From Candidatus Babelota bacterium (GTDB taxonomy: Bacteria; Babelota; Babeliae; Babelales; Vermiphilaceae): DNA of 64,000 nt. The stretch covers positions 62,001 to 126,000 of the forward strand of contig JAJCZB010000071.1 in NCBI GenBank assembly GCA_029262595.1, written 5' to 3'. Position 1 is the stretch's first letter. Every line of letters begins with the position of its first letter. The notes under the pieces were generated by a model, which had not been told where the DNA came from, searched no databases, and worked only from the letters and a program-made list of their open reading frames with translations. The position numbers and the translations under genes are program-made. This document shows positions 31,391 to 48,855 of the stretch, piece after piece.

Positions 31391-32185
31391 ATGGCAAACG
31401 TCCTAAGAGATTGGAAATGGAGCGGGAACAACGTTCAGACCGCTATTGTTGATGGAGAGCATCTATCAGCAGAATCGGCGTTGATCCTTGCTGCACCTCC
31501 AAGATTGGAACAATTGAGTCTCCGTGAGGCTCAGATTGCGCAAGGTAATACCGTTGGCGCAAACGTAACACCGGAAGCCCACTCGCAGTTGGTGCCGATC
31601 GGTCTTCTTCAGGACTTCACCGTAGGTCAGACGAAGCCTCAGCAGGAGATCTTCGAAATCGGATCTCGGCTGCGATACTTTGTCGATGGCCGTATGAGAG
31701 CTAGCTTCCAGGTAAGCCGAATCATGTATTTCGGACCATCCTTGATGCGGTTACTCTATGCATATGTTCCCGCGTCAAAGATCAGTCGTTTCGCTCAGCA
31801 GCTTAACGCTGGTACTTTGGACAATGACGCTCTTGCCGGTTTGGATCAGTTTCCTGAGATCGAAGACTTCGATGCTCCGGGTTATGGCAATAACGCAGGT
31901 TTTGGTATCGATCAAAACGCTTTGGTACAAAACTCGATCGATAACAACCGTGACTTCTGGATCAACCTACTATCCCTAGTCTTCAATCAGCCGACGGGTC
32001 TTGTGGTTATCCTCAAGGGAGCCAATAACCGGGCTTACGGTTCATTCTATATGGAATCGGTCAAGGTTGAGAACCACGGATTCAATGTAAGTTCAGGAGC
32101 TGTTATTATCTCCGAAACATTGAGTGGTCAATTCAAGAGGGTTATACCTATTCGCGTACAGCAGTTCTCGCTGACGGGAGGCTAG
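31391..32185 (+). CDS. Tail tube protein
   Basis: A 264-residue protein directly downstream of the sheath, the usual place of the tube subunit. Features fit the tube fold: an N-terminal strand region, VPIGLLQDFTVGQTKPQQ, a long loop with FEIGSRLRYFVDGRMRASFQ, and a final strand set (GSFYMESVKVENHGFNVSSG; VIISETLSGQFKRVIPI). It forms the inner channel of the tail. The TAG stop shares bases with the stop of the convergent sigma gene. No terminator is visible at the junction. Confidence 0.8.
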   Translation: MANVLRDWKWSGNNVQTAIVDGEHLSAESALILAAPPRLEQLSLREAQIAQGNTVGANVTPEAHSQLVPIGLLQDFTVGQTKPQQEIFEIGSRLRYFVDGRMRASFQVSRIMYFGPSLMRLLYAYVPASKISRFAQQLNAGTLDNDALAGLDQFPEIEDFDAPGYGNNAGFGIDQNALVQNSIDNNRDFWINLLSLVFNQPTGLVVILKGANNRAYGSFYMESVKVENHGFNVSSGAVIISETLSGQFKRVIPIRVQQFSLTGG

Positions 32186-32883
32186 GTCAGCTTTTTGTAA
32201 AGCTTTCTGAGAGCGGAATTTTCTATTTCAGTTATCGCCTTCGGACTCTTATGGAGCACGGAGGCGATTTCGTCTGTGGTATGTTCATGCCCGCCGATGC
32301 CATATCGTGATTTGAGAACGTATTTCTCGGTGTAATCAAGAGCGCCGTTGTTCAGGGCTGCGCGAAGACGACTTTTCATTTCAGTGTTGGGTTCATAGTT
32401 GTTGCTGTCTATTACGTCTTCTGCATCTTCCACGGGTACAAAGCCCGCTTCAGTCTTATCTGCGATGTTGTTTATCGGTCGCATCTGCTTTGCATCAGCT
32501 TCGATCTCTTTTCGGATTCCGAGTTTTATCCAGCTCATAGCATACGTGATAAAATACACATCGTATTTTGTGTCAAATCTGCGGATGGCTTCGAAGAGAC
32601 GTTCCACAGCGGCGTGGAAACAGGAGAAAAACAGATCTTCGGCATTTGCTCGGCCGAAACGATGTTTGTCCACGGCGTTTGTAGCTTCTTTGGTGATCAC
32701 CCGGTAACAGGATTGAACTAATCGATGCACAGCTACTTCACAACCGTCTTGAGCGGCGATCAGAAGGATTCTCTCCTCCTTCTTGGTCAGACGCTTGCCG
32801 GCATCAGTCTCTTCGAGAAACTTTTTAATGCTCTCGGAGTTGAAGTTGGCTAGTCCAAATATGGATTTACTCGGATTTTGCAT
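32182..32883 (-). CDS. Sigma-70 family RNA polymerase sigma factor
   Basis: A phage sigma factor of about 233 residues (up to 245 from ATG 32919). Region 2 is clear: RANAEDLFFSCFHAAVERLFEAIRRFD, then FITYAMSWIKLGIRKEIE, the -10 recognition and melting helix, given here as adjacent pieces. Region 4 is also clear: DYTEKYVLKSRYGIGG, HTTDEIASVLHKSPKAITEI, NSALRKLYKK, a helix-turn-helix for the -35 element. There is no long region 1.1, so it is of the alternative-sigma type. ATG 32883 is preferred because it overlaps the upstream stop by only 17 bases. It may direct the phage-encoded polymerase, host polymerase, or both to late promoters. Confidence 0.88.
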   Translation of the reverse strand: MQNPSKSIFGLANFNSESIKKFLEETDAGKRLTKKEERILLIAAQDGCEVAVHRLVQSCYRVITKEATNAVDKHRFGRANAEDLFFSCFHAAVERLFEAIRRFDTKYDVYFITYAMSWIKLGIRKEIEADAKQMRPINNIADKTEAGFVPVEDAEDVIDSNNYEPNTEMKSRLRAALNNGALDYTEKYVLKSRYGIGGHEHTTDEIASVLHKSPKAITEIENSALRKLYKKLT

Positions 32884-33274
32884 CAATCTCTGATATCCCA
32901 AATGATTTATCAAGAGCATTCATCACTTGTTCGAACACAGTAGGTACGATGGCCGAGTCGATGTAATTGAAGCTTACATCGCTGTTAGACATGTACTTGT
33001 TGCGTTCAAACGTTACTTCATAGTCCGGCCTATACTTCCGTACCCAGCTTTGGAAAAACAGGCTGAGATCATCGTGGAATTTGTAGGACGTCTTCTCGAA
33101 GTGCAGGATGAAATACTTGAGCTTTGGATCAGAGTGATAATTCGAAGATATATCGATTATGGAACGTCCGATTTTGAACTTCAATCGACCGTCGGCAGTC
33201 ATACCCTTAGAGGATATTCCCTCTTGAGAGTATTTGTTCCACCATTTTCCACCGGGTGTCTTGGAAGTTACCAT
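32867..33274 (-). CDS. Unknown protein, 135 aa
   Basis: A 135-residue protein overlapping both neighbours (TAATG at its start; 17 bases with the sigma gene at its end). It begins with TPGGKWWNKYSQEG and is mixed alpha/beta with many aromatic residues (YFILHFEKTSYKFHDD). No family recognised. Tight coupling to the sigma gene may mean shared regulation. Confidence 0.5.
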   Translation of the reverse strand: MVTSKTPGGKWWNKYSQEGISSKGMTADGRLKFKIGRSIIDISSNYHSDPKLKYFILHFEKTSYKFHDDLSLFFQSWVRKYRPDYEVTFERNKYMSNSDVSFNYIDSAIVPTVFEQVMNALDKSFGISEIDAKSE

Positions 33275-33696
33275 TACTGGATCCGCCGTTTTCTGCGTTT
33301 AGGATTAAAAAGTCTGCAGATAACTTGCCGCAGGTCCAAGTCCCGGTTCTTGAAATATTCAATACCCCATCCGAGGTATTTCGATCGTGGAGCGTGATTG
33401 GCTCTGGATAAAGATCTAAGATCGTATGCTTGGCAGTTTCCTACCAGATTACAATGTCGCTCTTCGAGTTTTACCGGTGGGCATTCGACTTGCATTTCCA
33501 ATAAGAGGGTAACAATAGCGCGAATACCCCATGCTGCAGGGAAAGGTTTGCTGGCCTTTTCCAACCATTCATATCCGGATTTGGTGGTGTGAAACTTTAC
33601 GTCTCTGAAGAATCGTCGGGTTGGCCTTCCCCGATAGGATTTGGGTTCGTCGCCGTCCTGGTGCGGAAACCGCATTGGCATGCTCGATTCTCCCAT
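33274..33696 (-). CDS. Unknown basic protein, 140 aa
   Basis: A 140-residue protein with several basic patches (SYRGRPTRRFFRDVK; FNPKRRKRRIQ at the C-terminus) and a cysteine/histidine cluster (CPPVKLEERHCNLVGNC). Starts at ATG 33696, 33681 or 33675 are possible, each overlapping the zinc-ribbon gene upstream by about 80-100 bases in another frame. The basic ends suggest nucleic-acid binding; no family recognised. Confidence 0.45.
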   Translation of the reverse strand: MGESSMPMRFPHQDGDEPKSYRGRPTRRFFRDVKFHTTKSGYEWLEKASKPFPAAWGIRAIVTLLLEMQVECPPVKLEERHCNLVGNCQAYDLRSLSRANHAPRSKYLGWGIEYFKNRDLDLRQVICRLFNPKRRKRRIQ

Positions 33697-33785
33697 TCTC
33701 TTCCCTCTTCATCTGCAACTTTTTCTATTTGCAAATCGTGACGCTTACACTCCGGACAGATAGTCGTGACACCGTACTTTTCCAT
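33597..33785 (-). CDS. Small zinc-ribbon protein, 62 aa
   Basis: A 62-residue protein with two cysteine pairs (CPECKRHD; ACQCGFRT) as in zinc ribbons, and a polar C-terminal tail. It starts one base after the previous stop, which supports it despite overlapping the following gene by about 100 bases. Probably binds nucleic acid or acts as an adaptor. Confidence 0.5.
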   Translation of the reverse strand: MEKYGVTTICPECKRHDLQIEKVADEEGREWENRACQCGFRTRTATNPNPIGEGQPDDSSET

Positions 33786-33786
33786 G

Positions 33787-34431
33787 TCATTCTTTCCGCG
33801 TTGGCCCAGAAAACGGTAAAGGTTGCTTTGCCAAGTTTTCTAGAGCCTTCGGCACATCAGGAATCACTTTAGCGGTATCAAACATTTCATTCAACAACTT
33901 TGTTGCCGATACGATATCTATCTTTTCTGGATTTACGTTTCTTTCCAAATAATTCAAGGGAATTGTTACATCGAAGAGATCAGAAATTGGAATAACTTGG
34001 ACACACGGACGAACACCACCTTCCGGTAAAGTCATATCATACTCAACCATGCAGGCAAGTCGGACAGATGCTGTAATTTTCGGCATCAACGGCGAAAACT
34101 CATCATAAATAGTAGATCCACACCGGATCTCGTCTACCAACACAGTCATAGATTTCTTGCCCGTGAAGAGTTCATTCGCAACATCGAACTCTGGGCGTTC
34201 AGCAGCTTGTTTACGGGATGCATCTATATCATCCGCCAATGATTTTTGGGCTGCACGGACGACCGCAGGATCCACCGCAGGCGAACTGCGGCCAAAAGCA
34301 GGTTCCGAGCTCGCGGCGTTCATCCGTTCATTCTCACCAAAAGCGGGTAATGTGTTCGGATCATCAAATTCACCCATGTGACCTTTCATGCCACTGGGTA
34401 GTTCATCGTCATCTAAAAAGTCGTCAGCCAT
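33787..34431 (-). CDS. Unknown protein, 214 aa
   Basis: ATG 34431 is chosen because TTGGAG lies eight bases ahead; an ATG 42 bases further out would run into the terminator. The first 80 residues are acidic and polar (MADDFLDDDELPSG), the rest is a folded domain with beta strands (SMTVLVDEIRCGS; SVRLACMVEYDMTLPEGG; VQVIPISDLFDVTIPLNYL). No family recognised. Confidence 0.55.
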   Translation of the reverse strand: MADDFLDDDELPSGMKGHMGEFDDPNTLPAFGENERMNAASSEPAFGRSSPAVDPAVVRAAQKSLADDIDASRKQAAERPEFDVANELFTGKKSMTVLVDEIRCGSTIYDEFSPLMPKITASVRLACMVEYDMTLPEGGVRPCVQVIPISDLFDVTIPLNYLERNVNPEKIDIVSATKLLNEMFDTAKVIPDVPKALENLAKQPLPFSGPTRKE

Positions 34432-34444
34432 GGTGTCTCCAATT

Positions 34445-34483
34445 CGAAGTAAAAATAAAGGGGTTTGTCTCAAACCCCTTTAT
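34445..34483 (-). terminator. Intrinsic terminator (12-bp stem)
   Basis: On the minus strand ATAAAGGGGTTT, loop GAGAC, AAACCCCTTTAT form a 12-bp stem, then TTTTACTT. It ends the 507-residue gene upstream. The T-tract lies about 10 bases before the GGAG site of the next gene, leaving no room for a separate promoter. The A-rich flank also allows termination on the plus strand. Confidence 0.8.
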
Positions 34484-34497
34484 TAATGCTGCAGCTG

Positions 34498-36021
34498 TTA
34501 GCTGCGGCGTCTTGTCTTCTTTTTCGCTGCCTTCTTTCGTGTTTTCTTTTTACTTGGAGCAGGCGAGCCATCTGCCAAGCGTTGGCATTCTTTGGTCAAG
34601 AAAGCTTGATACTTCATATCCGTATTGTACTCAGCATCAATGTAATCCATAAGTTTGCGCCAGCGTGGATCATCTTTATCCTCGAGCTGTTCAAGATCAT
34701 CGACAATGAGAACATTGGAAAGGACATTCTTCATGAATTCAGCATCTGCTGGGACTTGATTTTTGATGTATTGTATACGCTGAGCAACATTCAAATGATG
34801 AATCAGTTGGTAAGGATGGAAATTCTCTCTTGAAACCGCCACCGAGTCCTTTTCTTCAACTTTCGGTTCTTCTGCCGCTTTGCTTTCTTTGAAGAGCTCA
34901 AGGTTGCCTACATAAGCTCCTTGTAAGGCTGAGGTATCAATAGGGACAATCTCGACCTCTTTCTGGGCACATCCGTAAAATTGAGCCAGTTGCTTCTTAC
35001 TTGTTCCCAGAGCTGCAACCTTCCCTCCGGCCGTCGGTACTTTGGCCAAGGTGAGCTGTGGCAGCGTCTCTGAGACCAAATCAGGGTCTTTTAGGCTCAG
35101 TACCATGATGTCAATGCCGAAGGTGTTTCTGAGGCCCTCTAGGAGCCTATTTAGCCCTATAGCCTGAGCTGCTCCAGATGAAACAGCATCAAAACTACTC
35201 ATCCACGCACCGGCCATATTGACATAGCACTCTCCATCGCTTCCTACACCCACGTAGGTGCGTTTGATAGCCGATAGACAGTCTTTGACAACTTGGCCGG
35301 CAGGGCCTGGTATTTTGAAACCTCGAAACTTGTGAACTTCTTCGTCTGTATTGGAATCGTCCTCTTTCTCGACATTTTCCCGACGAAGTTCGTGGCGCAG
35401 TTTTTCTACACTGTGATCTGAACCTTCATCTAACCAAGGCATCCACTGCGGGATGATATTGTCATCATTGATCAAACCCTTCTTTATGAGCGATCGAGCT
35501 TCTAACGCACGCCGGAAGCTTATCTTTTCGAAGGTGTCATCATTGATATTTAGCAGGGTAAGTGCCATGAATGTATCTGCGTAATCGTAGAATTGACTTT
35601 TAGACGTATTGGGCAGATATTGATCGATGAAGTCTTTGAGGTGTTCAACGTTGTGTTTGGCAAGAAATTCTTGACTCAAACCGCGTGTCTTTATTTGGTG
35701 ATAACGAAAGGCCTTTTCTTTCCGAAGGCCGTTATCCGATACTTCAAGTGTATTGACTCGGTCAATAAGCTCTTCATCATTGAGATAAAGCTTATCGACC
35801 GAGTTTTCCATGAGCTTCGCAGCTTGCATTTCTGCGTCATGAACTCGTTCAGCTTCAGAGGCAGTTCCTTCACCTTTCGCGGCGGAGGATTTACTCATAG
35901 TGGTGACAGGAGCATCTATGGCCTTTTTCTTGGCCGTCTTCTTGGCCGTCTTCTTGACTGATTTTTTGACTACCTTCTTGGCAAGTGTATTCTTCTTAAC
36001 CTTCTTCTTGGCAATAGGCAT
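34498..36021 (-). CDS. Unknown protein with lysine-rich tails at both ends, 507 aa
   Basis: A 507-residue protein with a near-perfect ribosome site (AAGGAGG before ATG 36021). Residues 1-36 (AKKKVKKNTLAKKVVKK; KTAKKTAKKKA) and the last 18 (SKKKTRKKAAKKKTRRRS) are histone H1-like. The body is helical in its first half and mixed later (GPAGQVVKDCLSAIKRTYVG; FGIDIMVLSLKDPD). No enzyme motif is seen. Strong initiation site and a strong terminator behind it suggest high expression. A DNA-coating or replication-associated role is inferred from the tails and from its place beside the nuclease. Confidence 0.65.
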   Translation of the reverse strand: MPIAKKKVKKNTLAKKVVKKSVKKTAKKTAKKKAIDAPVTTMSKSSAAKGEGTASEAERVHDAEMQAAKLMENSVDKLYLNDEELIDRVNTLEVSDNGLRKEKAFRYHQIKTRGLSQEFLAKHNVEHLKDFIDQYLPNTSKSQFYDYADTFMALTLLNINDDTFEKISFRRALEARSLIKKGLINDDNIIPQWMPWLDEGSDHSVEKLRHELRRENVEKEDDSNTDEEVHKFRGFKIPGPAGQVVKDCLSAIKRTYVGVGSDGECYVNMAGAWMSSFDAVSSGAAQAIGLNRLLEGLRNTFGIDIMVLSLKDPDLVSETLPQLTLAKVPTAGGKVAALGTSKKQLAQFYGCAQKEVEIVPIDTSALQGAYVGNLELFKESKAAEEPKVEEKDSVAVSRENFHPYQLIHHLNVAQRIQYIKNQVPADAEFMKNVLSNVLIVDDLEQLEDKDDPRWRKLMDYIDAEYNTDMKYQAFLTKECQRLADGSPAPSKKKTRKKAAKKKTRRRS

Positions 36022-36032
36022 CAGGCCCCTCC

Positions 36033-36968
36033 TTAGATCATTTTGAAATTTTTCTCAGCAAAGCATTCTGTCACCCACGGACAGTCTTTTGCTTTCCAAC
36101 AAGTGCTATTGACGCATCCGCGAGGTACGTCTAACGGTTCATTGGTTTTGTTTACCAAGTCGAGTTCGGTCTGAATCCATTTAGCATACTTGGCATCCAT
36201 CTGGAACCAGAAAGGTTTATATTCGAAATTTTCATTTACGTACAGGACAATCCCTACACGAATCTTACCCATCCACTTGTAGGTGGAAAGTTGAGCGATA
36301 TGCTTAGGCTCGGCACTGTTTTGAAAGCGCCACATTTTATTGTCCAGAGACTTTATCTCAATGATGATGAGCATATCCTCCCAGAGAACTATGCAATCAA
36401 CGTGTCCCGCTACGACAATACCTTTGTGGGTTCGTTTTAGTATGACCTCTCTGTATTTCAGGCGACCTTCATAGCCGCATTGGGAGCAATGGGTTGGCGC
36501 TTCCGTACAAAGAGTCTTTTCAGCTTCAACATGTTCGCAATTCGGACATTCCCAATCGCCCCAAAGAATACCATCTTCATATAAGGCATCCCGAACGACG
36601 TCATGGTAAATATTCCCACGATGCCATTTCTTACGCATCGGGATATCTTTCATAAGGATATCGGATTCAGGCCATTGACTTTCGGGTATCTCTTCCTTTT
36701 CGTAAGGAATACCTCCAGGGTTGTCTCGCTTAGCATATACGAATTTTCGCGGACACCAATCGGCAAGTTCACTGCTGTGCAAGTGAGCTATTCGCGGCCG
36801 TTCACGTTGGATCTGTGTGAATATTTTTTGGAAGCCCCTATCCAAATGTTTTTGAAGCGAGAATAGTTCTCGCTTCGGTTTTGGAATAGGAGCTGCATTA
36901 GCCAGGCCGCCGACAGATTCTTCAAATTTGCCAACGGCCTTGGACTTGAACTTTATCTTTTTTGCCAT
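36033..36968 (-). CDS. Cas4/RecB-like PD-(D/E)XK nuclease
   Basis: A 311-residue nuclease with all landmarks of Cas4-like exonucleases: first iron-sulphur cysteine C72 in SSELADWCPRKF, H122 in GNIYHDVV, D191 in VAGHVDCIVL, E204 and K206 in IIIEIKS, Q226 in IAQLSTYKW, and the C-terminal cysteines C285, C290, C296 and C302. An extra zinc-ribbon-like insertion with C141, C144, C161 and C164 (CPNC...CSQC) sits before the catalytic core. It likely degrades or trims DNA ends in replication and recombination. A candidate promoter lies just upstream. No CRISPR array is present, so the Cas4 likeness refers to fold only. Confidence 0.82.
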   Translation of the reverse strand: MAKKIKFKSKAVGKFEESVGGLANAAPIPKPKRELFSLQKHLDRGFQKIFTQIQRERPRIAHLHSSELADWCPRKFVYAKRDNPGGIPYEKEEIPESQWPESDILMKDIPMRKKWHRGNIYHDVVRDALYEDGILWGDWECPNCEHVEAEKTLCTEAPTHCSQCGYEGRLKYREVILKRTHKGIVVAGHVDCIVLWEDMLIIIEIKSLDNKMWRFQNSAEPKHIAQLSTYKWMGKIRVGIVLYVNENFEYKPFWFQMDAKYAKWIQTELDLVNKTNEPLDVPRGCVNSTCWKAKDCPWVTECFAEKNFKMI

Positions 36969-36995
36969 TCCCAGTTCTTTCGTCTACTGCGGTGT

Positions 36996-37024
36996 AAGAT
37001 ACGTTCGGAGAGGGAACACGTCAA
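36996..37024 (-). promoter_or_regulatory. Candidate sigma-70-type promoter before the Cas4-like gene
   Basis: On the minus strand TTGACG (37019-37024) and TATCTT (36996-37001) are 17 bases apart, so transcription would start about 27 bases before ATG 36968. It is in the gap between the small gene at 37,040 and the nuclease gene. Confidence 0.45.
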
Positions 37025-37039
37025 TCTTTCGGAAAGTAT

Positions 37040-37174
37040 TCATTTTATTTGTATCGGAGCTTTGCGTACGTAGTCAGCTACCTTCGTTCCATTTTGGCGC
37101 ACATACGTGCTTACGTGTTGAGTTGCTACCTGTGCAGTAGGTTTGGTAAGTAATGCTTTTATAGCTGCAAACAT
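37040..37174 (-). CDS. Small protein with YVRxNGTxV motif, 44 aa
   Basis: A 44-residue reading frame with a GAGGACACC site before ATG 37174. The product contains HVSTYVRQNGTKVADYVRKA, which follows the pattern H-V-x-x-Y-x-R-x-[DN]-G-T-x-V-x-x-Y-x-R seen in many small phage and bacterial proteins of unknown function. Too short for most gene callers, but start site, motif and fit in the gap support it. Confidence 0.6.
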   Translation of the reverse strand: MFAAIKALLTKPTAQVATQHVSTYVRQNGTKVADYVRKAPIQIK

Positions 37175-37195
37175 TTAGGTGTCCTCTTTATCAGT

Positions 37196-37651
37196 TTAGG
37201 GGTGCCACGGAATATCCCCGGCACCTATTTCGTATTGAAGCATATCGACGGCTCGATCGAATATGCTCCAAAATTTGTGAGCCAGCTCCAAAGATCCTGA
37301 AGCTAATTGACCACAACGATGTAGTTCTACAGCAGGACCAACATTTCCACAGTGCGAAAGCATTGGGGCTGAACACCATTCTTTCCCGTCTGATGCAAAA
37401 CAATAAGCATCATAGGTATGCGAACTCCCATGGGAGCCGATGAATGCTATATTGAGTCTGTCTAGCCGTTGTTCAATTTCATGGATTCCTGAGATCTCTT
37501 CAAAATCTATTTCTACACAGGGTCCAGAATTGGATACGGGATATTTTTTGAGCAGTTCACTGTCAGATGTTTCGCATGCATCAAAAACTGCTTCCACAAG
37601 AGGAGCATCAGCTTTTGAACAAACGATTTTTACTCCACAACGATCACTCAC
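37196..37651 (-). CDS. Unknown protein, 151 aa
   Basis: A 151-residue cysteine- and histidine-containing protein (YCFASDGKEWCSAPMLSHCG; VELHRCGQLASG). It overlaps the gene upstream by eight bases. First of a run of short, closely packed genes of unknown function. No family recognised. Confidence 0.5.
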   Translation of the reverse strand: MSDRCGVKIVCSKADAPLVEAVFDACETSDSELLKKYPVSNSGPCVEIDFEEISGIHEIEQRLDRLNIAFIGSHGSSHTYDAYCFASDGKEWCSAPMLSHCGNVGPAVELHRCGQLASGSLELAHKFWSIFDRAVDMLQYEIGAGDIPWHP

Positions 37652-37904
37652 TGGTACACACTACCTTTACTGTACCTTCTTGGTCAGTGCATATCGTTCC
37701 AAAAGCATCATTGGTCGCGTCTACCCATTGGAGAACACCGAAATTGTTTCCCTCAGAATCTGAGGTTGCGTAGATAGTTGAGCCGTCAGTGAATTCAATG
37801 ATGACAGGGTAGCCTATGCTGAAATCCTTTTCCCAGCCGTAGACTTTCATGTCACGATCATCCATGCGGTACATTTTTGCTATTGTTTTACCGATTAGAT
37901 TCAT
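37644..37904 (-). CDS. Unknown small protein, 86 aa
   Basis: An 86-residue beta-rich protein (GYPVIIEFTDGSTIYATSD) that overlaps both neighbours by 8-17 bases. The strand pattern resembles small SH3-like folds, but no family can be named. Confidence 0.5.
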   Translation of the reverse strand: MNLIGKTIAKMYRMDDRDMKVYGWEKDFSIGYPVIIEFTDGSTIYATSDSEGNNFGVLQWVDATNDAFGTICTDQEGTVKVVCTSE

Positions 37905-38088
37905 GTTTGGCTTTCTCTTCGTGAAGATCTAATTTTTCTTCTTTGGAGGCGGCTCCGATATACATGAAGTGAGGTTTGTCCCCCGCTTGGATGTTGTCGT
38001 GGTCGATAACCAAGATGTCCATCTCCGTATCAGAGCGTACGTCCTGCAGGACACCGCCGCTTATTTCAAGAACCACTTTGGGCTTCAT
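37888..38088 (-). CDS. Unknown small protein, 66 aa
   Basis: ATG 38088 is preferred, with TGGAGGAAATCA before it. The 66-residue product starts MKPKVVLEISGGVLQDV and has TEMDILVIDHDN, as in small phage proteins of unknown role; its end is charged. It overlaps the upstream gene by 23 bases. Confidence 0.5.
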   Translation of the reverse strand: MKPKVVLEISGGVLQDVRSDTEMDILVIDHDNIQAGDKPHFMYIGAASKEEKLDLHEEKAKHESNR

Positions 38089-38263
38089 TGATTTCCTCCA
38101 CAGACCAGTGCTCCTTGTCGAGCGTGTGACTGTATTCGCACATGATTTCATGGGAGAGATCTATCTCTCCGGCTTTTTCCAAAGCTTCTTCTGGTGAAGT
38201 CGCTTCTACTTCACGGGTAGACACATGGACTTCCCGCACACCTACGTGAAATTTAGGCATCAA
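38066..38263 (-). CDS. Unknown small protein, 65 aa
   Basis: A 65-residue protein with two adjacent ATG codons at its start. PKFHVGVREVHVSTREVEA followed by SPEEALEKAGE is a pattern often seen in small phage proteins: one strand pair, then a helix. Function unknown. Confidence 0.5.
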   Translation of the reverse strand: MMPKFHVGVREVHVSTREVEATSPEEALEKAGEIDLSHEIMCEYSHTLDKEHWSVEEINEAQSGS

Positions 38264-38702
38264 GGTCCACTCCTACGATCGTTAGAAGTTCTGTGGGTTT
38301 GACGTTACTTTCAGCCCAGTAGACACCATCACGCATATCGCCTTGAGAATGATTCACTTCTCGGATGGCTTCGATCATTAAGTCATAGGTGTCAAATGGG
38401 CCAGTCCATTCCTGCGGCTCAACGTCGCCATAAATATGGATGAACCAGAAGTATTTTTGGGATGTCTTTTCTCGGAGAATGAGTTGGTCGGTATTGAATT
38501 CCTCGCAAAGAACGTCAAGTTCCTTAGCGAATTCTTTGCTACGTTCATCAATACCATGATCTCCGAGTATCAGCTCTGCAGATTTACCATGAGAGATGTC
38601 TCCTGAGGCATAGGATTGTAATTCACGCATGCCGGCCAACATTATGGCTTCTATCCGAAGCATTTCTTCTTCGGAACGCGGTGTAACTTTTTGTGTAGTC
38701 AT
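38253..38702 (-). CDS. Unknown protein, 149 aa
   Basis: A 149-residue protein, ATG 38702 after AAGAGAAAACAAA. Helical first half, mixed second half with FWFIHIYGDVEPQEWTGPFD, an aromatic patch. Overlaps the next gene by 11 bases. No family recognised. Confidence 0.5.
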   Translation of the reverse strand: MTTQKVTPRSEEEMLRIEAIMLAGMRELQSYASGDISHGKSAELILGDHGIDERSKEFAKELDVLCEEFNTDQLILREKTSQKYFWFIHIYGDVEPQEWTGPFDTYDLMIEAIREVNHSQGDMRDGVYWAESNVKPTELLTIVGVDLDA

Positions 38703-38713
38703 TTTGTTTTCTC

Positions 38714-39211
38714 TTAAAAGGGCGTGGGCGCCCGTAACTCATTTTTTGCATGGATAGGGCCAAATTGGCCTTCATATGATCGTCGCTTGTTCAAGATGTA
38801 TTGAACATCTTCTTTATGTTCCAAGAGTATAGTCACGGCATCCTCAGGTTTTATTTGTCCATAAATGACCTGAGGTTGTAACAATTCAGCCAATTCCGCC
38901 TTGGTGTCAATAACGGCTTGGTGATTGGCCCCTTTATGCACATCTTGAAACAACTTCCCATCTGTAGTTCGGAAAGCTTCAATTGAGCCTTTGTATATCT
39001 CAAGTGAAGATGCGGGTACGAATCCCAGAACGGGATGTTTCGGGTAGTAAAGATTGGAGAGATGGTAGGTGGTTGGGTCTTCATTGATTCGAAAAATGAT
39101 GAAAACTTTGCCTATATCTTCTTCACCTGTCACTACTGTTTCTTCGTTCATGGAGCAATAATACTCGTAAGTTTTTACGAATTTTACTACATCTGATTTT
39201 TCGAAAGTCAT
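38714..39211 (-). CDS. Unknown protein, 165 aa
   Basis: ATG 39211 overlaps the upstream stop in the ATGA manner and is preferred to the ATG ten codons earlier. The protein is mixed alpha/beta (KVFIIFRINEDPTTYHLSNL; VLGFVPASSLEIYKG) and ends with NKRRSYEGQFGPIH. Function unknown. Confidence 0.5.
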   Translation of the reverse strand: MTFEKSDVVKFVKTYEYYCSMNEETVVTGEEDIGKVFIIFRINEDPTTYHLSNLYYPKHPVLGFVPASSLEIYKGSIEAFRTTDGKLFQDVHKGANHQAVIDTKAELAELLQPQVIYGQIKPEDAVTILLEHKEDVQYILNKRRSYEGQFGPIHAKNELRAPTPF

Positions 39212-39432
39212 TTTACTTCCCATGCAGTAACAGCTCCCCAACCTGCAACCGTACCTTCAAGGACAATCACATCCTCAGGGTTGCGATCGGCGTTGGCTTC
39301 TGCTTGAAATTGCTTTCTTTGGACCACACCAAACACCTGGCTTTCAGTAGGATGGCGTGGTTGTGTCATAAGTGTCACCTGAGAATCCGGTGGCTGTTGT
39401 GATAACAAGTTTATAAGTTCTTGTACTGTCAT
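39208..39432 (-). CDS. Unknown small protein, 74 aa
   Basis: A 74-residue protein beginning MTVQELINLLSQQPPDSQV, a pattern (helix, then PxDxxV and a strand) found in small phage proteins of unknown role. Overlaps both neighbours by four bases. Confidence 0.55.
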   Translation of the reverse strand: MTVQELINLLSQQPPDSQVTLMTQPRHPTESQVFGVVQRKQFQAEANADRNPEDVIVLEGTVAGWGAVTAWEVK

Positions 39433-39680
39433 TTCTTTTCTCCATTTTTTGGGTTTTTACAATCTTCAGGAAGAGCCCTGTCGATCGATATTTCATGTGT
39501 TGGATCTTCATCTCCTGTCCAAACACGGACTTGCAGTTTTCCCTCTGCTACGAAGATGAGAATCTGAGTTGGGTCTATGTCAGCGTATGAGTTTGATTGT
39601 CCTTTGAAGTTCAAAGCACTTACCCATACACCTCCACCCTTTTCCAAATTCAATTCATCTTCAGTTACACGTATATCCAT
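39429..39680 (-). CDS. Unknown small protein, 83 aa
   Basis: An 83-residue beta-rich protein (GGGVWVSALNFKGQ; ILIFVAEGKLQVRVW) with a polar, lysine-containing end. Coupled to both neighbours by 1-4 base overlaps. Unknown function. Confidence 0.5.
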   Translation of the reverse strand: MDIRVTEDELNLEKGGGVWVSALNFKGQSNSYADIDPTQILIFVAEGKLQVRVWTGDEDPTHEISIDRALPEDCKNPKNGEKK

Positions 39681-40012
39681 TATTTACCGTCCAAGAATTC
39701 TTGGAGGGCTATTTGCGTGTCCTCAACTTTGTTACTGGGTGTGATAGGAGTGTAAACATCATAACCCATGTTTAGCGGTGCTTCGTCGATATCGTGTTCC
39801 ATATTTGTTTGAATGAGGAGTAATCCCTTTTTGGTCGCCCAGTATTCTAGTCGTATACCTCGACCGCCGTATTCTTCGGGATCCCACATTTCATTTTCCC
39901 GGATGTTTTTAGCACCGCTGTCGATAAGCAAATTTCGAAGGGCATCTACGTTCTTTTTACGCGCCTCTGACCATTCACGACGCTCTTTATCAGCTTCAGT
40001 TGATTTTCTCAT
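39680..40012 (-). CDS. Unknown protein, 110 aa
   Basis: A 110-residue protein with a charged helix at the N-terminus (EADKERREWSEARKKNVDAL) and a mixed domain (IRLEYWATKKGLLLIQTN). Stop overlaps the next start by one base. Unknown function. Confidence 0.5.
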   Translation of the reverse strand: MRKSTEADKERREWSEARKKNVDALRNLLIDSGAKNIRENEMWDPEEYGGRGIRLEYWATKKGLLLIQTNMEHDIDEAPLNMGYDVYTPITPSNKVEDTQIALQEFLDGK

Positions 40013-40018
40013 ATTTAC

Positions 40019-40312
40019 TTACCACGAATTATAGAAACGAATGTGAGTGATATTTTTAGGAATTTTAGATACTTCAACCTCGTAACCTTCAGCGTTAGCA
40101 TTACTCCATTCTGTACAGCATTCATGCGAATCGTCTGAGAGTGCTGAAAGTTTGATTTCTATCCCTTTTTCGTCAGGATCTGATTCAAAGAAGTCTTCAA
40201 CTTCTTCAGGCGGATCAATTCCGGCTTCTTTGCAACTGTCCCAAATGGCTTTCATTTTCTTCCATTGGTCATCCGGTGGTCGAAAGCCGATGACGTTAGT
40301 GCTCATACCCAT
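40019..40312 (-). CDS. Conserved-looking small phage protein, 97 aa
   Basis: A 97-residue acidic protein that starts MGMSTNVIGFRPPDDQWKKM; MSTNVIGFRPPD followed by WxxMKxxWDxC is a pattern I associate with small phage proteins of unknown function. The initiator overlaps the previous stop (TAATG). ATG two codons in is also possible. Confidence 0.55.
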   Translation of the reverse strand: MGMSTNVIGFRPPDDQWKKMKAIWDSCKEAGIDPPEEVEDFFESDPDEKGIEIKLSALSDDSHECCTEWSNANAEGYEVEVSKIPKNITHIRFYNSW

Positions 40313-40677
40313 TAATTTACCTTCCTGTATCTATCTGGTTCGTTAGCTATTTGACTTGGAGTCAACCATTGGTTAGGCCCACCTGTGTAATCTTTTTGGT
40401 GCGTAACGGTGCGTACCAGCATTCTGTAAGGCTCTCCGAAGAGTCCCTCACCAGCGCTGAGGTACCAATTGTTTGTGTGTAGTGTTGTATCCCCAAGAAT
40501 GGCAATCCCACCTGGATTGGTGCTGAGCGTATAATCGCCCTTTTTCAATCCGAGTTGGTCTGCCAACTTCTTGAAGAATGCTTTTGCAGCTTTGTGAAAG
40601 CGCTTCTTTGTTTTTTCGTCGTAGGATGCGTGTTCCGCGTGAGCTCGTTCAAGAGCGTGTGCTAATTTAATCAGCAT
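40312..40677 (-). CDS. Unknown protein, 121 aa
   Basis: A 121-residue protein: a helical, basic N-terminal half (KKRFHKAAKAFFKKLADQLG) and a beta-rich second half (NPGGIAILGDTTLHTNNWYL). An AAAGAGAACC site precedes ATG. Function unknown. Confidence 0.5.
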   Translation of the reverse strand: MLIKLAHALERAHAEHASYDEKTKKRFHKAAKAFFKKLADQLGLKKGDYTLSTNPGGIAILGDTTLHTNNWYLSAGEGLFGEPYRMLVRTVTHQKDYTGGPNQWLTPSQIANEPDRYRKVN

Positions 40678-40692
40678 AAGGTTCTCTTTCTT

Positions 40693-40878
40693 TCAATTTC
40701 GTTCATAAGGCTGCATGGTGATGTTTGACGGACGCTTCTTTGCGAAACATTCGACAAGGACGTCTTCGAGATTAACTCGTTCTTTTTGCGTCATGGGGAC
40801 TCCATCTCGGGAATACCATACGTCATGTACATATTTAGCTGATTGTTTGATGAAACGTTCAAATTCTAGGTCTGTCAT
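40693..40878 (-). CDS. Unknown small protein, 61 aa
   Basis: A 61-residue protein, MTDLEFERFIKQSAKYVHD followed by DGVPMTQKERVNLEDVLVEC, likely three helices. Keeps the tight spacing of the block. Unknown function. Confidence 0.45.
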   Translation of the reverse strand: MTDLEFERFIKQSAKYVHDVWYSRDGVPMTQKERVNLEDVLVECFAKKRPSNITMQPYERN

Positions 40879-40911
40879 TAGAACTTTCTTAGTGAAGGGG
40901 AAAATTCCTAT

Positions 40912-41148
40912 TTAACTTCGCGGGGGATAACTTTTTCCCGGATATCGGAACTGCACATAGCAGATACATTCTCTGTGATAATAACAATCATGCCCTAGTG
41001 CCTTCCAAATTTTGAAGAACGCATTGTTGTATTCCGGACGACCATTTTTGCAGGAACACCCGGAGGCATGCATCGCATTTTCCCAATCGTCGTTATGATC
41101 ACATGCACTACCTCTGGGTGTTTTGTGATGGATACTTTTCGTTATCAT
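40912..41148 (-). CDS. Cysteine-rich small protein, 78 aa
   Basis: A 78-residue protein with six cysteines and several histidines (ACDHNDDWENAMHASGCSCK; GHDCYYHRECICY), probably metal-binding. It overlaps the methyltransferase stop by four bases, so it is translated after that gene. Unknown function. Confidence 0.5.
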   Translation of the reverse strand: MITKSIHHKTPRGSACDHNDDWENAMHASGCSCKNGRPEYNNAFFKIWKALGHDCYYHRECICYVQFRYPGKSYPPRS

Positions 41149-42713
41149 GCAACTTTGACTCCTTCAACAGGGTCGAGAAGATTATTTTCAACAAGACGTT
41201 GGGCCATTATGGGGCAAACAGAATTACCAATCTTTGCAATTTGGTTTGCCTTTGTTCCAGTCAATTCGTACGAATCAGGAAAGCCCTGAGCGCGTGCAAG
41301 TTCACGAGGTTGTAACATCCTTAGACCAATATCAGTGATCTGATAATCGGCACCATTGATAGTCACAACACCCAAACGGGCTTTTGTTGTTATTGTGTGG
41401 AGAGGCTCAGCGGCACGTTGACCTGTGGCTGTACCATAATATTTGATCAAGAAAGCTCGAACCATTTCTGTGTTGTTAAATTCGCCAACAGCTGCAGCTT
41501 TAACTGTTGAGAGTTTATTCATGGAAGCAGTCACCTTGGCAAATTTATTCCCTTGAGCGGTCACAGTTTTTAGCGGTTCCTTCATGTCCGAACCGATACC
41601 TGTCCCATAATATCGGCTGACGAAAGCCGCTATGAGAGCGTTGTGATCCCAAGACGTCACTGTAGGTAATGGCGCATCTGCACGTTTACCAACCATACCT
41701 CCATAGAATTGACTGATGTGTGGAATCACAATAGCCTTTTCAGCAGTATGAGATACCACAGTACCTAGGGGCTTCTTCAGGTCTTGACCGCGTAATTTAC
41801 CATCTTTGGTGTAATGCGCGATATCTACAGCATATGGAACCACGAGAGCTTTGTCATTTCCTTGGGCACATACAGTTCCTAATGGATCTTGAGTGCTTTG
41901 GCCTCGGAAGTAGACAGGCTTATCTTTATTGTAGTGCCCTGTCCTGACAATGAACGGTTCAGGATCCTCAAAGACAAACTTCTTGAGTCCCTTAGCAATC
42001 CGCTTCATGGTGTTTTCTGCCAACGGCCGTTTACGGTTAAAGATAGAATTCGTAGGTATCGACCAATCAATACAATCGGCTGCCGTATTGTAAGGGAGTT
42101 TCCCCGGACCATGAGTAGGTTCAGGCCAGGTAATAGGTGCTCCATCACACCTAGCTATAAGGAATAACCTCCGTCTGTGTGTAGGAGCTCCGTAGTCGGC
42201 CGCATTGAGATCTCGTTCTTCAATAGCATATCCCAGCTCAGCTAACTGTCGTTTCCATGAACGATATGTTTCACCCATTCGTTCTTTATCTGGGCGCTCA
42301 TTCTTCAATGGTCCCCACTCACGAAACTCTCTTACGTTTTCAAGCATGATGATTCGAGGTCGAACCAGCTTTGCCCATTTTATGACGATCCAAGAAAGAG
42401 CGCGTTGTTGTTTCTTTACAGGTTTCGCCCCTCTTGCTCGAGAGAAGTGAAGGCACGCTGGAGAAAACCAAGCCAGTCCGATAGGTCTTCCATCAGATAT
42501 AGCTCTGGGATCAACTTGCCAGATGTCTTCACACATATGTTTTGAATCAGGATGATTCTTAGCGTGCATCTCAAGGGCAGATGCATCATGATTGATTGCG
42601 ACATCTGGATCTCGTCCGATCGCCCACGCGATTCCGGTACTCGCACCGCCTCCACCTGCGAAGTTATCGACCACAAGTTCACCAGACAGAGCGGTTTTAT
42701 TACATAGCATCAT
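41145..42713 (-). CDS. DNA (cytosine-5) methyltransferase
   Basis: A 522-residue C5 cytosine methyltransferase that transfers a methyl group from S-adenosylmethionine to DNA. Motif I VVDNFAGGGGASTG (14-27), motif IV FSPACLHFS with catalytic C87 (SPAC in place of the usual PPC), motif VI LENV (124-127), motif VIII YGAPTHRRRLF (174-184) and motif X-like QIAKIGNSV (491-499) are all present. Between VIII and X lies a target-recognition region of about 190 residues with five internal repeats of P-L-x-T-[VI] (prolines at 277, 315, 348, 380, 437). No restriction enzyme partner is seen, so it probably protects phage DNA from host nucleases or marks it for other ends. Confidence 0.9.
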   Translation of the reverse strand: MMLCNKTALSGELVVDNFAGGGGASTGIAWAIGRDPDVAINHDASALEMHAKNHPDSKHMCEDIWQVDPRAISDGRPIGLAWFSPACLHFSRARGAKPVKKQQRALSWIVIKWAKLVRPRIIMLENVREFREWGPLKNERPDKERMGETYRSWKRQLAELGYAIEERDLNAADYGAPTHRRRLFLIARCDGAPITWPEPTHGPGKLPYNTAADCIDWSIPTNSIFNRKRPLAENTMKRIAKGLKKFVFEDPEPFIVRTGHYNKDKPVYFRGQSTQDPLGTVCAQGNDKALVVPYAVDIAHYTKDGKLRGQDLKKPLGTVVSHTAEKAIVIPHISQFYGGMVGKRADAPLPTVTSWDHNALIAAFVSRYYGTGIGSDMKEPLKTVTAQGNKFAKVTASMNKLSTVKAAAVGEFNNTEMVRAFLIKYYGTATGQRAAEPLHTITTKARLGVVTINGADYQITDIGLRMLQPRELARAQGFPDSYELTGTKANQIAKIGNSVCPIMAQRLVENNLLDPVEGVKVA

Positions 42714-42907
42714 GGATTGAGTCCCTTCGATAACTTTTCAATTATCAACTCGAGTAATTTAGTTTTTGAGCTGGCTGAGAGGTTGAGTTCCTCTACCCAC
42801 CATCTATCCATTCCGTTGTTGGTTTGGATTGTATTTATGTCAAAGCCTAAGCTTTTGGCCTGTTTAGCCGAAGCCATTTGTTTTCTAAGAGTCATTACGT
42901 TAACCAT
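42710..42907 (-). CDS. Unknown small protein, 65 aa
   Basis: A 65-residue protein overlapping the methyltransferase start by four bases (ATGA). Helical, with LRKQMASAKQAKSLGFDI and LSASSKTKLLELIIEKLSKG. ATG four codons in is an equal start. Unknown function. Confidence 0.5.
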   Translation of the reverse strand: MVNVMTLRKQMASAKQAKSLGFDINTIQTNNGMDRWWVEELNLSASSKTKLLELIIEKLSKGLNP

Positions 42908-43101
42908 GCTTTTCTTGTGTTACCGCATTCAACGCAGGTGTACATTTTCCTGCGCTTGGAGTATTGCATCACTCCGCGACAGACACCGCCCATAGGACTG
43001 CAATCTGTTTCTCGGCATATTACCCGGTACTGTCCAGATTTATCAAAATTGAGAGGTGACAAAGGCCATCTCTTAGGAAAGTATTCGCGTATCGTTATCA
43101 T
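42895..43101 (-). CDS. Small zinc-binding protein, 68 aa
   Basis: A 68-residue protein with two cysteine groups (CRETDCSPMGGVCRG; YTCVECGNTRKAW), the second a zinc-ribbon knuckle. Likely nucleic-acid or protein binding. It sits one base after the upstream stop. Unknown function. Confidence 0.5.
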   Translation of the reverse strand: MITIREYFPKRWPLSPLNFDKSGQYRVICRETDCSPMGGVCRGVMQYSKRRKMYTCVECGNTRKAWLT

Positions 43102-43102
43102 A

Positions 43103-43333
43103 TTACAAACCCTCTTGTTCCGCTTCGAAATGATCGGTTGCTATACGTAGGGCTTCTTCAAAGTCGACATCGAAGCCTTCACAATAGTGCATGACATCGG
43201 TAAGAAGGTCTACGGCTGAGGTATGTTGATCAAAAGGGTCATCGGGCCAATGTATAGCCACACAAGCTGTGACTTTGGCTTTACCCATTTCACATTTTTC
43301 ACGCATCTGTTTCTTTGATCTCTTCTTCGCCAC
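43103..43333 (-). CDS. Unknown small protein, 76 aa
   Basis: A 76-residue protein: basic start (AKKRSKKQMREKCEMGKAK), then an acidic helical domain (DLLTDVMHYCEGFDVDFEEA). Overlaps the gene upstream by 35 bases; ATG 43306 would reduce this to eight. Unknown function. Confidence 0.5.
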   Translation of the reverse strand: MAKKRSKKQMREKCEMGKAKVTACVAIHWPDDPFDQHTSAVDLLTDVMHYCEGFDVDFEEALRIATDHFEAEQEGL

Positions 43334-43859
43334 AGCGATCCTCCGTTAGTGTATCTACTAGCTCAAATAACCCCTTTTCGGGCATAACGGTGTCGTATTC
43401 TTGAACGTTTCGAACATGGACTCGACCGTCTTGCCAGTAATAGGTTAGGCTTATGAAGCCATCTTCATATTTTTCAAAGTGCATTTGAACGATGGCATTT
43501 CGAGCACCTTCAACCATATCGCGTAGTTGGTTGACTGGAACACGCCAGGTTTCTTTCAATGCTTGTTTCAATCCCTCTTCTTGTGTTCGGGTTAAATTCA
43601 AGCATTGAAGAAATCTCTGACGGTTCATGAACTCATTTATTTTTTGAAGAATTCTACTGGCTCGGTTGTTTACGAAAATGAAGGCATTTGAGAGGGAAGG
43701 TTCTTCAATATCATCTTTCCACGTCAATAATGCCAAAGCGCCCTTTCCACTTATCCTTTCTACTTTTGGAAGGTCAGCTGCATTTAGGATAAGAGGCACC
43801 CATACTCCATCGTCGGTTTGAGCAGTTAGTTCGCATTCCTCAATATTAATGTCTTGCAT
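43299..43859 (-). CDS. Unknown protein, 186 aa
   Basis: A 186-residue protein with mixed first half (WVPLILNAADLPKVERISG), a helical basic centre (FMNRQRFLQCLNLTRTQEEG) and a beta-rich end (DGFISLTYYWQDGRVHVRN). Overlaps the previous gene by 14 bases. No family recognised. Confidence 0.5.
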   Translation of the reverse strand: MQDINIEECELTAQTDDGVWVPLILNAADLPKVERISGKGALALLTWKDDIEEPSLSNAFIFVNNRASRILQKINEFMNRQRFLQCLNLTRTQEEGLKQALKETWRVPVNQLRDMVEGARNAIVQMHFEKYEDGFISLTYYWQDGRVHVRNVQEYDTVMPEKGLFELVDTLTEDRCGEEEIKETDA

Positions 43860-44451
43860 GTTTTTTCCCTAGTTTGGCCAAGGCTGCCAGATCTATGGTC
43901 AGTGGCTGCGATGAATTAGTGTTGATGAAACAATGTCTGCAGACGGCACAGTTTATACCGGGATCCTTTTCGCCATTTTCTGTTGGACAAACAATCGATT
44001 TGCCAAAGGTCTTTTTCACGGTCTTTCTGTGATGCTGCAATCTGAATACTACGTCAGCAAGTGGATCCTCCTCTTCATTGTTTTCGGCCATGTACGCTGT
44101 TCTGAAATCATCGTATCCTTGATCATGAGGATGGGGCATTTGATGATCATGGCTGAGCATTATCTCTACATTAGGTAGGTTGTTCAGTCGTCTCAAATCC
44201 CGTATGAATCCTTTCACAGCCCATGAGCGGGTATATGCCCAGGCTGTAACATCTGGTCTATCTCGTAAGATGTACCACCAGTCTCGAGCATACTTGGGTG
44301 TGTAGAAATCTCCCCCTCCGTGTAATCGTAACAGTCCGCCGAGAGGGATTGACAGCTTCATGTCGTCTACGAATTTTGAATTCTTTGAAATTTTCAAATT
44401 TAGGAACGCTAAGTCTTTCAGATGACCTCTGAAAGTTTCCAGATTTGACAT
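43846..44451 (-). CDS. Gp88-like phage protein
   Basis: A 201-residue protein whose core LLRLHGGGDFYTPKYARDWW followed by RPDVTAWAYTRSW follows the pattern [RI]-[IL]-H-x-x-G-D-F-[FY]...NPDV-x-[FW]-[FY]-A-Y-T-[RK]-S of the Gp88 family of phage proteins, whose role is not known. C-terminal cysteines (IVCPTENG; INCAVCRHCF) suggest a metal or iron-sulphur site, also seen in that family. Length is somewhat short for it. The match is from memory of the pattern. Confidence 0.6.
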   Translation of the reverse strand: MSNLETFRGHLKDLAFLNLKISKNSKFVDDMKLSIPLGGLLRLHGGGDFYTPKYARDWWYILRDRPDVTAWAYTRSWAVKGFIRDLRRLNNLPNVEIMLSHDHQMPHPHDQGYDDFRTAYMAENNEEEDPLADVVFRLQHHRKTVKKTFGKSIVCPTENGEKDPGINCAVCRHCFINTNSSQPLTIDLAALAKLGKKHARH

Positions 44452-44576
44452 ATAGCATCGATAGCTACAGAAATCTGTTTTTCCAGGTCAGGTGTATCGA
44501 CTCGGTATGCTCCAACAGTATGTTAGTCCAAGTTTGGAATTACTTGTACCTATATGGGCGCCAAGTAATTTTGTTT
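44452..44576 (-). other. Intergenic 125 bases without a supported gene
   Basis: On the minus strand 44,418-44,522 is an open stretch of 34 codons ending inside the next gene, with protein-like composition (AYRVDTPDLEKQISVAIDAI) but no ATG, GTG or TTG start. It could be a gene remnant. No terminator or promoter is clear. Confidence 0.3.
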
Positions 44577-44882
44577 TCAACGTACGATCCTGAGTTTATT
44601 CACTGAATGTTTCCTCCTGTCATCAGCTATAATATTTATGAGTCTGTTCCATAGACCTTCACGACGAGCTATTTTTCCACAATCTGTGCCCTCCACGTAT
44701 AACCGGTAATAGCCTCCGGCTTCTTCAGCTTCAGGTGTGAATATGAGGACACAGACAGCTACAACATCACCCTCGTATTCGATGTTGTACATGTAATGAT
44801 TCGGGTTTTTGTCGTCAATCTGGTGTGGAGCTATCGTTAGCTTCGTCAGATCCAGATTCTTCTTCCGAAGATACGGATTCAT
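44577..44882 (-). CDS. Unknown protein, 101 aa
   Basis: A 101-residue mixed protein (YMYNIEYEGDVVAVCVLIFT; EAGGYYRLYVEGTDCGKIAR) ending RKHSVNKLRIVR. The strand-helix order with RREGLWNRLINIIADDRRKH resembles small acetyltransferase-like folds, but this is too weak to name. Overlaps the gene upstream by 68 bases. Confidence 0.45.
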   Translation of the reverse strand: MNPYLRKKNLDLTKLTIAPHQIDDKNPNHYMYNIEYEGDVVAVCVLIFTPEAEEAGGYYRLYVEGTDCGKIARREGLWNRLINIIADDRRKHSVNKLRIVR

Positions 44883-45153
44883 CCGATGTCTCCTCTTTTA
44901 GGATAGGTACAGTTCCAGCGAATGCGCTAGAGGATTTTGAATCCACTGCACCTCCACAGAATTCACCGTATGTGCCTTCGTGTAGACATTTCCGGCAGCT
45001 CATATATTCAGCGGCATCTGACCAATCAACATTGGACGTATGTTCAACGCCGGCATCTCGGATGATAAAGACAGCACGACCTGTGACTTGGAATTCCTCT
45101 TCATAGCCGCATGATGGGCAAGCCACATTTTTCAAACAGTTTGTGTTAGGCAC
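44815..45153 (-). CDS. Zinc-ribbon protein with acidic tail, 112 aa
   Basis: A 112-residue protein: residues 12-65 form a zinc ribbon with CPSCGYEEEF and YMSCRKCLHEG; residues 80-112 are acidic and serine-rich (SDESVSSEEESGSDEANDSS), probably disordered. It overlaps the next gene by 68 bases in the tail-coding part. May bind nucleic acid or a host protein. Confidence 0.55.
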   Translation of the reverse strand: MPNTNCLKNVACPSCGYEEEFQVTGRAVFIIRDAGVEHTSNVDWSDAAEYMSCRKCLHEGTYGEFCGGAVDSKSSSAFAGTVPILKEETSDESVSSEEESGSDEANDSSTPD

Positions 45154-45604
45154 GACGATTCTCCATATGTTTTATTTCATTTATTGGGCATACAATTGTC
45201 CGAGGACTTGTAGCGAATGCGGGGTCGAATATTTTCGGAGTAGCTCGCATTTCCACAAAGCCATTGGCTACATCCAATATCTCCGCATCCATATAGTACA
45301 TGCTCCCAATTTTTACCAAACCCCAAAACTGTTTGGGGTTTATAAAAGGGAAGATACCTTCACGAGTCGTTCTTTCATCAAAAAGTGTTTTGTCGCCCTC
45401 AGCAACGGAAATGTATCCCGTAGGTCCTTTTTCTGAATTATGACAAGGAAGCAGGTGGACCTCCACACCATCTGTGTTTTCCACAATATCTTTGGATAGG
45501 TTTAACACGGCGGTATCAAGATCATCTTTATTGGGGAGGGCTACCGCAAAGTGTAGGATGCGGTAAAACTCTCCGTCTTCTTTCCCGGTTCTTTTCTTCG
45601 GCAC
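45146..45604 (-). CDS. Unknown protein, 152 aa
   Basis: A 152-residue protein, ATG directly after the upstream stop. Mixed fold (FYRILHFAVALPNKDDLDTA; GLVKIGSMYYMDAEILDVAN) with a C-terminal TIVCPINEIKHMENRR. No family recognised. Confidence 0.5.
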   Translation of the reverse strand: MPKKRTGKEDGEFYRILHFAVALPNKDDLDTAVLNLSKDIVENTDGVEVHLLPCHNSEKGPTGYISVAEGDKTLFDERTTREGIFPFINPKQFWGLVKIGSMYYMDAEILDVANGFVEMRATPKIFDPAFATSPRTIVCPINEIKHMENRRA

Positions 45605-48804: not shown

Positions 48805-48817
48805 TGTCTACCTCGCA

Positions 48818-48855
48818 TATAGAAATAAGGGGGTGGGTTGAAAGCCCACCCCCTC
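48818..48855 (-). terminator. Intrinsic terminator after the 496-aa gene
   Basis: On the minus strand AGGGGGTGGG, a short loop TTTCA, and CCCACCCCCT form a 10-bp GC-rich stem, followed by TATTTCTATAT. The T-rich tract lies a few bases before GAGG and the start of the UvrD-like gene at 48,804. Confidence 0.8.

Follow-up and report, generated by a model that had tools for sequence, protein, structure and literature searches.

A phage sigma-70 protein and its candidate partner, a fused beta-beta' RNA polymerase core, in a large, little-studied lineage of tailed phages

When a phage genome encodes both a multisubunit-type RNA polymerase core and a sigma-70 family protein, which core does the sigma factor use, that of the phage or that of the host? 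The question is raised by a stretch of 64,000 nucleotides (the window, C71:62001-126000) of a contig, C71, that is 178,574 bp long and belongs to a 1.45-Mb metagenome-assembled genome. An identical run of 141 bases stands at both ends of C71, as would be the case if the molecule were a circle of about 178,433 bp, and we take this circle (178.4 kb) to be an apparently complete phage genome. Its GC content is 46.7%, whereas four cellular loci in the bin have about 40%; the bin is thus only a possible host of the phage. A long plus-strand block, which starts near 134 kb, crosses the origin and ends at 94.2 kb, carries the virion genes, the core and the terminase, and a 40-kb minus-strand block, from about 134 to 94.2 kb, carries replication genes. 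The two blocks converge at the sigma gene, which we call sigmaA. The sequence-only reading had placed this gene at the end of the minus-strand module, and it is indeed the last gene of the 40-kb block. The main features of the window are as follows.

1..1368, plus strand: portal gene, 3' part (full gene C71:61437-63368; homologous to gp204 of phage Arash)
1872..7823, plus strand: RNA polymerase core, a single 1983-aa ORF that joins beta and beta' (Pfam domains)
31391..32185, plus strand: convergent neighbour of sigmaA, probably a virion gene (same partner in the related contigs G001, G002 and G012)
32182..32883, minus strand: sigmaA, sigma-70 family, 233 aa, without sigma domain 3 (upstream ATG at 32919 possible)
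32867..63972, minus strand: block upstream of sigmaA, with DNA polymerase A, UvsX-like recombinase, UvrD-type helicase and others; sigmaA is last

Several further features of the genome were recorded. At C71:4402-13888 (L004:2402-11888) the phage has 26 tRNA genes, together with a tmRNA gene whose tag peptide, GNVHNMSDYTRPLALVA, can be read. A large protein encoded in the replication block (window 41145-42713, minus strand) resembles a C5-cytosine DNA methyltransferase, as judged by eye. Lys/Ala-rich, histone-like tails with repeated KKVAKK-type motifs are encoded at window 1372-1839 (plus strand) and 54839-56587 (minus strand) and at C71:139280-139843; one of these ORFs sits between the portal and core genes, and the N-terminus of the bin's own RpoD is similarly lysine-rich.

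The open frame of sigmaA extends from 32182 to 32919 on the minus strand, and the start at 32883 gives the best fit to the ortholog alignment. Its elements, named after those of cellular sigma factors, are placed as follows.

32479..32742, minus strand: sigma region 2, about aa 48-135 (phmmer alignment and contact-residue alignment)
32389..32478, minus strand: sigma 3.2 finger/linker, about aa 136-165 (low model confidence here)
32182..32388, minus strand: sigma region 4, about aa 166-233, helix-turn-helix (Pfam and AlphaFold model)

The identification of sigmaA as a sigma-70 protein with regions 2 and 4, made in the sequence-only reading, is borne out by phmmer, by PHROG and by Pfam. Region 4 matches PF04545 with E 6e-6 and 26 bits (cut-off 24.1), and the protein matches the PHROG sigma family phrog_351 with E 3.5e-23. 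Against the PDB, phmmer aligns regions 2 and 4 to Thermus SigA (E 7e-9) and region 2 also to that of RpoS. Region 2 scores 16.6 bits against PF04542, below the cut-off of 24, but is Pfam-positive in the G012 ortholog (27.3 bits), which passes both Pfam cut-offs. An AlphaFold model built from a 12-sequence family alignment (pLDDT 76; a single-sequence model was poor, with pLDDT 51, and was left unused) retrieved E. coli sigma32, SigA and sigmaS as its top structural matches, with whole-chain TM-scores that are low because the model does not fix the relative position of the domains; region 2 has a helical fold in it. About 58 residues are skipped relative to Thermus SigA, corresponding to domain 3 (regions 3.0-3.1), and domain 3 is equally missing from the orthologs in G001 (48% identity, same syntenic place), G012 and G002, which have the same layout. 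The two-domain layout fits an ECF (group 4) sigma factor, but the best PDB matches are principal sigma factors, and no ECF family appears among the Pfam and PDB matches. On these comparisons, sigmaA is a real sigma-70 family gene and a chance ORF is ruled out.

That sigmaA has decayed or been repurposed, for example to regulate simply by binding DNA or to inhibit the host sigma factor, is suggested by the missing domain 3 and by an unusual region 2.2, where the core-contact segment DLIQEGNIGL of cellular sigma70 is replaced by CFHAAVERL. The pattern of conservation argues otherwise: region 2.3-2.4 is the best conserved part between the C71 and G001 proteins (60% identity), the finger/linker (43%, with a motif, PI-N--DKTEA, common to sigmaA and its closest ortholog) and region 4 (47%) are also kept, and the G012 ortholog retains Pfam-level matches to both domains. 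We regard decay or repurposing as highly improbable.

The fused core seen in the sequence-only reading is a single ORF that closely follows the portal gene within the block of virion genes. Three of its elements bear on catalysis and on sigma docking.

3924..4010, plus strand: beta flap/flap-tip helix region, the docking element for sigma region 4 in cellular RNAP; shortened
5319..5462, plus strand: beta' clamp helices, the docking element for sigma region 2 in cellular RNAP; V at the position of E. coli R275
5901..5915, plus strand: catalytic D-x-D-G-D (NMDHDGD) of the beta' part; the three Asp are invariant in the family

Scanning viral contigs with the sigmaA or core protein singly returned nothing, and alignments were needed as queries; a GTDB scan with the core gave one distant match only. 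In IMG/VR, 206 stretches were found to encode relatives of the core, and the best 80 loci were kept. None of these 80 has beta without at least the N-terminal half of beta' fused to it, and many have a single ORF of about 2000-2100 aa. At other loci (e.g. L007, L008, L048 and L072) we observed a break in beta' just after the active site, at about query residue 1430, and all of these split forms make up one clade on the core tree. The constant position of this break is reminiscent of the cyanobacterial rpoC1/rpoC2 split. Some core genes are over-long by 350-600 codons (L020:3968-10981 and L079:3887-11716; similarly in L057, L063 and L064). The two that were tested have LAGLIDADG-type insertions inside the polymerase, one with a weak intein-splicing match, so these insertions are likely to be inteins. 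The only match to the alpha subunit (PF01000) in the assembly is on a cellular contig, and C71 has none.

Among cultured phages, the same core family is found in Salmonella phage Arash (OQ632216; PMC10585845) and in the Vibrio phages D69, D181 and D148, at about 28-30% identity over nearly the full length. In these four phages beta' is divided between two ORFs, with the break after the active site, whereas the C71 core is one ORF. As in C71, the portal gene is next to the core, and it lies upstream of the core in both C71 and Arash. Fusion and splitting of this kind also occur in cells: beta is fused to beta' in the rpoBC genes of Helicobacter and Wolbachia, and cyanobacterial rpoC1/rpoC2 has a break inside beta'. 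These are cellular enzymes with alpha, omega and host sigma factors, and it is their layout that recalls the phage fusion and split. The crAss-like RNAP (phi14:2 gp66, YonO type) is a virion-associated single polypeptide. Both this enzyme and the tail-tape RNAP of P23-45 are highly divergent, minimal polymerases with no known sigma factor. The P23-45 enzyme is likewise single-polypeptide and virion-associated (PMC10770324), and the C71 core resembles both in its single-polypeptide form. Also comparable are the mReC metagenomic tailed phages (Weinheimer and Aylward 2020, PMC7481178), which, like the C71 relatives, are RNAP-encoding Caudovirales mined from IMG/VR, and whose beta and beta' are closer to the cellular enzymes than are those of phiKZ or crAss. 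The main text of that study never mentions sigma and mentions fusion for crAssphage only. With respect to the mReC markers, the C71 capsid gene has no PF07068 match and its terminase matches PF03237 weakly, below the cut-off.

With its own fused core and a sigma factor, the phage had been proposed to possess a complete two-protein transcription system. The sigma factor does occur with a fused core of the phage's own, as claimed, but the description simplifies too much: a second sigma-like protein, sigmaB, accompanies the core more constantly, and its ortholog is packaged in Arash virions. This gene lies outside the window.

C71:146278-146952 (L135:1498-2172), virion gene block: sigmaB (basis: sigma profile)

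The profile first placed sigmaB at C71:146521-146955, which was refined to the coordinates given. Region 3 is present in this protein, region 2 is degenerate and region 4 is weak. Orthologs are found in D69 and in Arash (gp10, i.e. gp010, by position and sequence), where it is a major protein of the virion; all four cultured phages, like C71, have sigmaB and a second sigma factor. That second sigma factor keeps a longer domain 3 region, which C71 sigmaA lacks.

We examined how regularly core and sigma factors occur together. Of 28 IMG/VR records picked for encoding the core, 16 are at least 150 kb long, and sigmaB is present in all 16. Conversely, 20 of 20 new large contigs (146-211 kb) picked by sigmaB alone carry an RNA polymerase beta gene, as tested with PF00562, a match that does not itself prove membership of the same subfamily. 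A 17-sequence alignment of sigmaB was too diverse for scanning, and two narrower alignments worked. Full-length sigmaB relatives among 50,697 phage records are confined to Arash, D69, D181 and D148, all of which carry the C71-type core and are its best matches among isolates. Although the sequences span great diversity, the contigs are mutually related, and these counts are therefore not independent events. SigmaA has a different distribution. It is found in three of the five core clades (those of C71, of Arash/D69 and of G005/G006/G013/G028), with no match in the remaining two, and the system can therefore exist without sigmaA. Within the clade of C71 it is present in all four members, mostly syntenically, and all three relatives have it in the corresponding position; absence of the sigma factor from close relatives with the same polymerase, which the sequence-only reading had named as evidence that would count against it, is thus not what is seen. 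Pairing of core and sigma is the rule in this large, little-studied phage lineage, and sigmaB is the core's more constant partner.

The same reading held that phage sigma factors and multisubunit-type cores are rarely seen together. For the phiKZ-type jumbo phages of the literature this stands; for the C71 lineage, where pairing is the rule, it does not. No sigma match was obtained in four phages whose multisubunit-type cores are of other kinds (GN1, RHph_Y65, Va2 and Carin-5). Cobetia phage Carin-5 was considered as a precedent on account of a protein annotated 'RNA pol sigma factor' (PV155638.1, L009:21255-21845) and was rejected, as this protein has no match to the PHROG sigma family; its gene adjoins the split core of that phage. 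The 'sigma' annotation of YerA41 was not relied on, its relative GN1 having no phrog_351 match. The non-virion RNAP of phiKZ and AR9, with gp68 and gp226, respectively, resembles the C71 system in joining a phage beta/beta' core to a phage specificity subunit. Structurally, these subunits contain counterparts of sigma2, the finger and sigma4 (PMC9209446). However, no sigma sequence can be recognised in AR9 gp226, which also has no sigma4 helix-turn-helix, whereas C71 sigmaA is clear by sequence, and phiKZ-type cores comprise four or more polypeptides, a layout that the one-ORF C71 core does not share.

We next consider which core sigmaA is likely to use. In E. coli, beta' residues R275, E295 and A302 matter for sigma binding, with R275 required; on the sigma factor, the contact with beta' involves residues 403, 406, 407 and 409 (PMC8321222). 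The R275 position is arginine in 30 of 30 cellular beta' sequences from the phylum of the metagenome-assembled genome and in none of 79 phage cores, where the structural neighbours N266 (77/79) and Y269 (79/79) are retained. Among the sigma factors, Q406 persists in 8 of 9 from other phages and in 1 of 14 sigmaAs (Fisher P 1.6e-4, with shared ancestry ignored; some of the nine control phages may themselves encode a core). E407 is less discriminating, since some host-dependent phage sigma factors have also lost it. Both host-core contact residues are changed in C71 sigmaA, to H at the Q406 position and to A at the E407 position. The phage core keeps recognisable clamp helices and flap, the two sigma-docking elements. 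Because the contact residues of sigmaA and core have diverged together, the phage core is favoured as the partner of sigmaA. This divergence is the pattern expected if sigmaA followed the phage core; it is our main argument, and an indirect one.

The obvious alternative is that sigmaA behaves like SPO1 gp28 or T4 gp55, directing the host core to phage middle or late genes, and that sigmaB alone serves the phage core. Those proteins and other host-directed sigma factors are, like sigmaA, phage-encoded members of the sigma-70 family, and they hijack the host enzyme. The phages that carry them are not known to have a core of their own. Such sigma factors are common, the closest BLAST matches of sigmaA in other phages are proteins of this type, and sigmaA is patchy where sigmaB is universal; in addition, the phage core is listed among the Arash virion proteins and sigmaA is not. 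This account must be set against the loss of Q406 in 13 of 14 sigmaAs compared with 1 of 9 control phage sigma factors, and against the docking site of the phage core, which has been re-modelled alongside. Host-type promoters are also not in excess: in the divergent region, the sole stretch tested, sigma-70 promoters occur at chance level. We consider host-directed action unlikely. The promoter motif check proposed in the sequence-only reading, run upstream of genes in this one genome, yielded only a ribosome-binding consensus, AGGAGGTAGACATG. This consensus is strong at many gene starts (e.g. C71:1615, 19884 and 139271). A promiscuous sigmaA, used with both host and phage core, would be in keeping with clamp helices and flap that host-type and phage cores keep alike and with a conventional sigma region 4, but it does not sit well with the divergence at the contact residues Q406 and R275, and we judge it distinctly less probable still.

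Published virion proteomics of Arash bear on the role of sigmaB. There gp206 (beta) is the most detected virion protein, with 3516 spectra, and gp216 (beta') and gp010 ('sigma') have 1210 and 467 (PMC10585845). Divided by length, these counts become 2.3, 2.0 and 2.0 spectra per residue for gp206, gp216 and gp010, within a range of 0.7 to 4.3 for the remaining virion proteins, although spectral counts are semi-quantitative and only a rough gauge of amounts. The similar per-residue values are compatible with a packaged holoenzyme of core and sigmaB. Arash sigmaA, gp196, is absent from the virion table, which goes from Gp194 to Gp197 (PMC10585845). The C71-clade sigmaA, without domain 3, and the Arash sigmaA are perhaps not strict orthologs, so this non-virion result may not transfer to C71. 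The part of that report drawn on here notes core and sigma in the virion and proposes neither a holoenzyme nor a switch to a second sigma factor (PMC10585845).

These observations suggest a model in which sigmaB acts first and sigmaA later, with sigmaA setting the promoter specificity of the phage's fused core rather than that of the host; we hold this to be the better-supported account and moderately probable. The core probably travels in the virion and is injected along with sigmaB. The delivered core and sigmaB would transcribe the first (early) genes, and the replication block would then be expressed. Unpackaged sigmaA would be made during infection, last, from the distal end of that block, and would replace sigmaB or act on newly made core, redirecting it to a further class of phage promoters. 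We infer from sequence that sigmaA physically binds the phage core, and we likewise infer the temporal switch from sigmaB to sigmaA and the existence of a sigmaA promoter class.

Reviews treat multisubunit-type RNAPs and sigma factors as separate strategies, found in different jumbo phages (PMC7598289, PMC7824862). Unlike the phages so described, the C71 lineage combines its own core and its own sigma as a rule. The elements are known singly; their constant pairing, the clade-patterned second sigma factor and the co-diverged interface appear to be new in the open-access literature searched. The pairing probably frees these viruses from the host transcription machinery. The broader proposal, on which we are evenly divided, is that transcription in a large lineage of tailed phages depends on a sigma-70 system of the phages' own, with a virion core preloaded with a dedicated sigma factor and, in some clades, a second sigma factor that acts as a switch. 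The existing Arash proteomics could then be re-read as evidence for a packaged holoenzyme, and the cultured hosts (Salmonella, Vibrio) make the lineage accessible. It would offer a testable case of sigma and core co-diverging after leaving the cell, and a natural small sigma-dependent RNAP, possibly delivered in the virion as holoenzyme. If the proposal is true, no sigma-dependent RNAP of cellular type simpler than that of the C71 clade would be known: it would consist of two polypeptides, with no phage alpha subunit.
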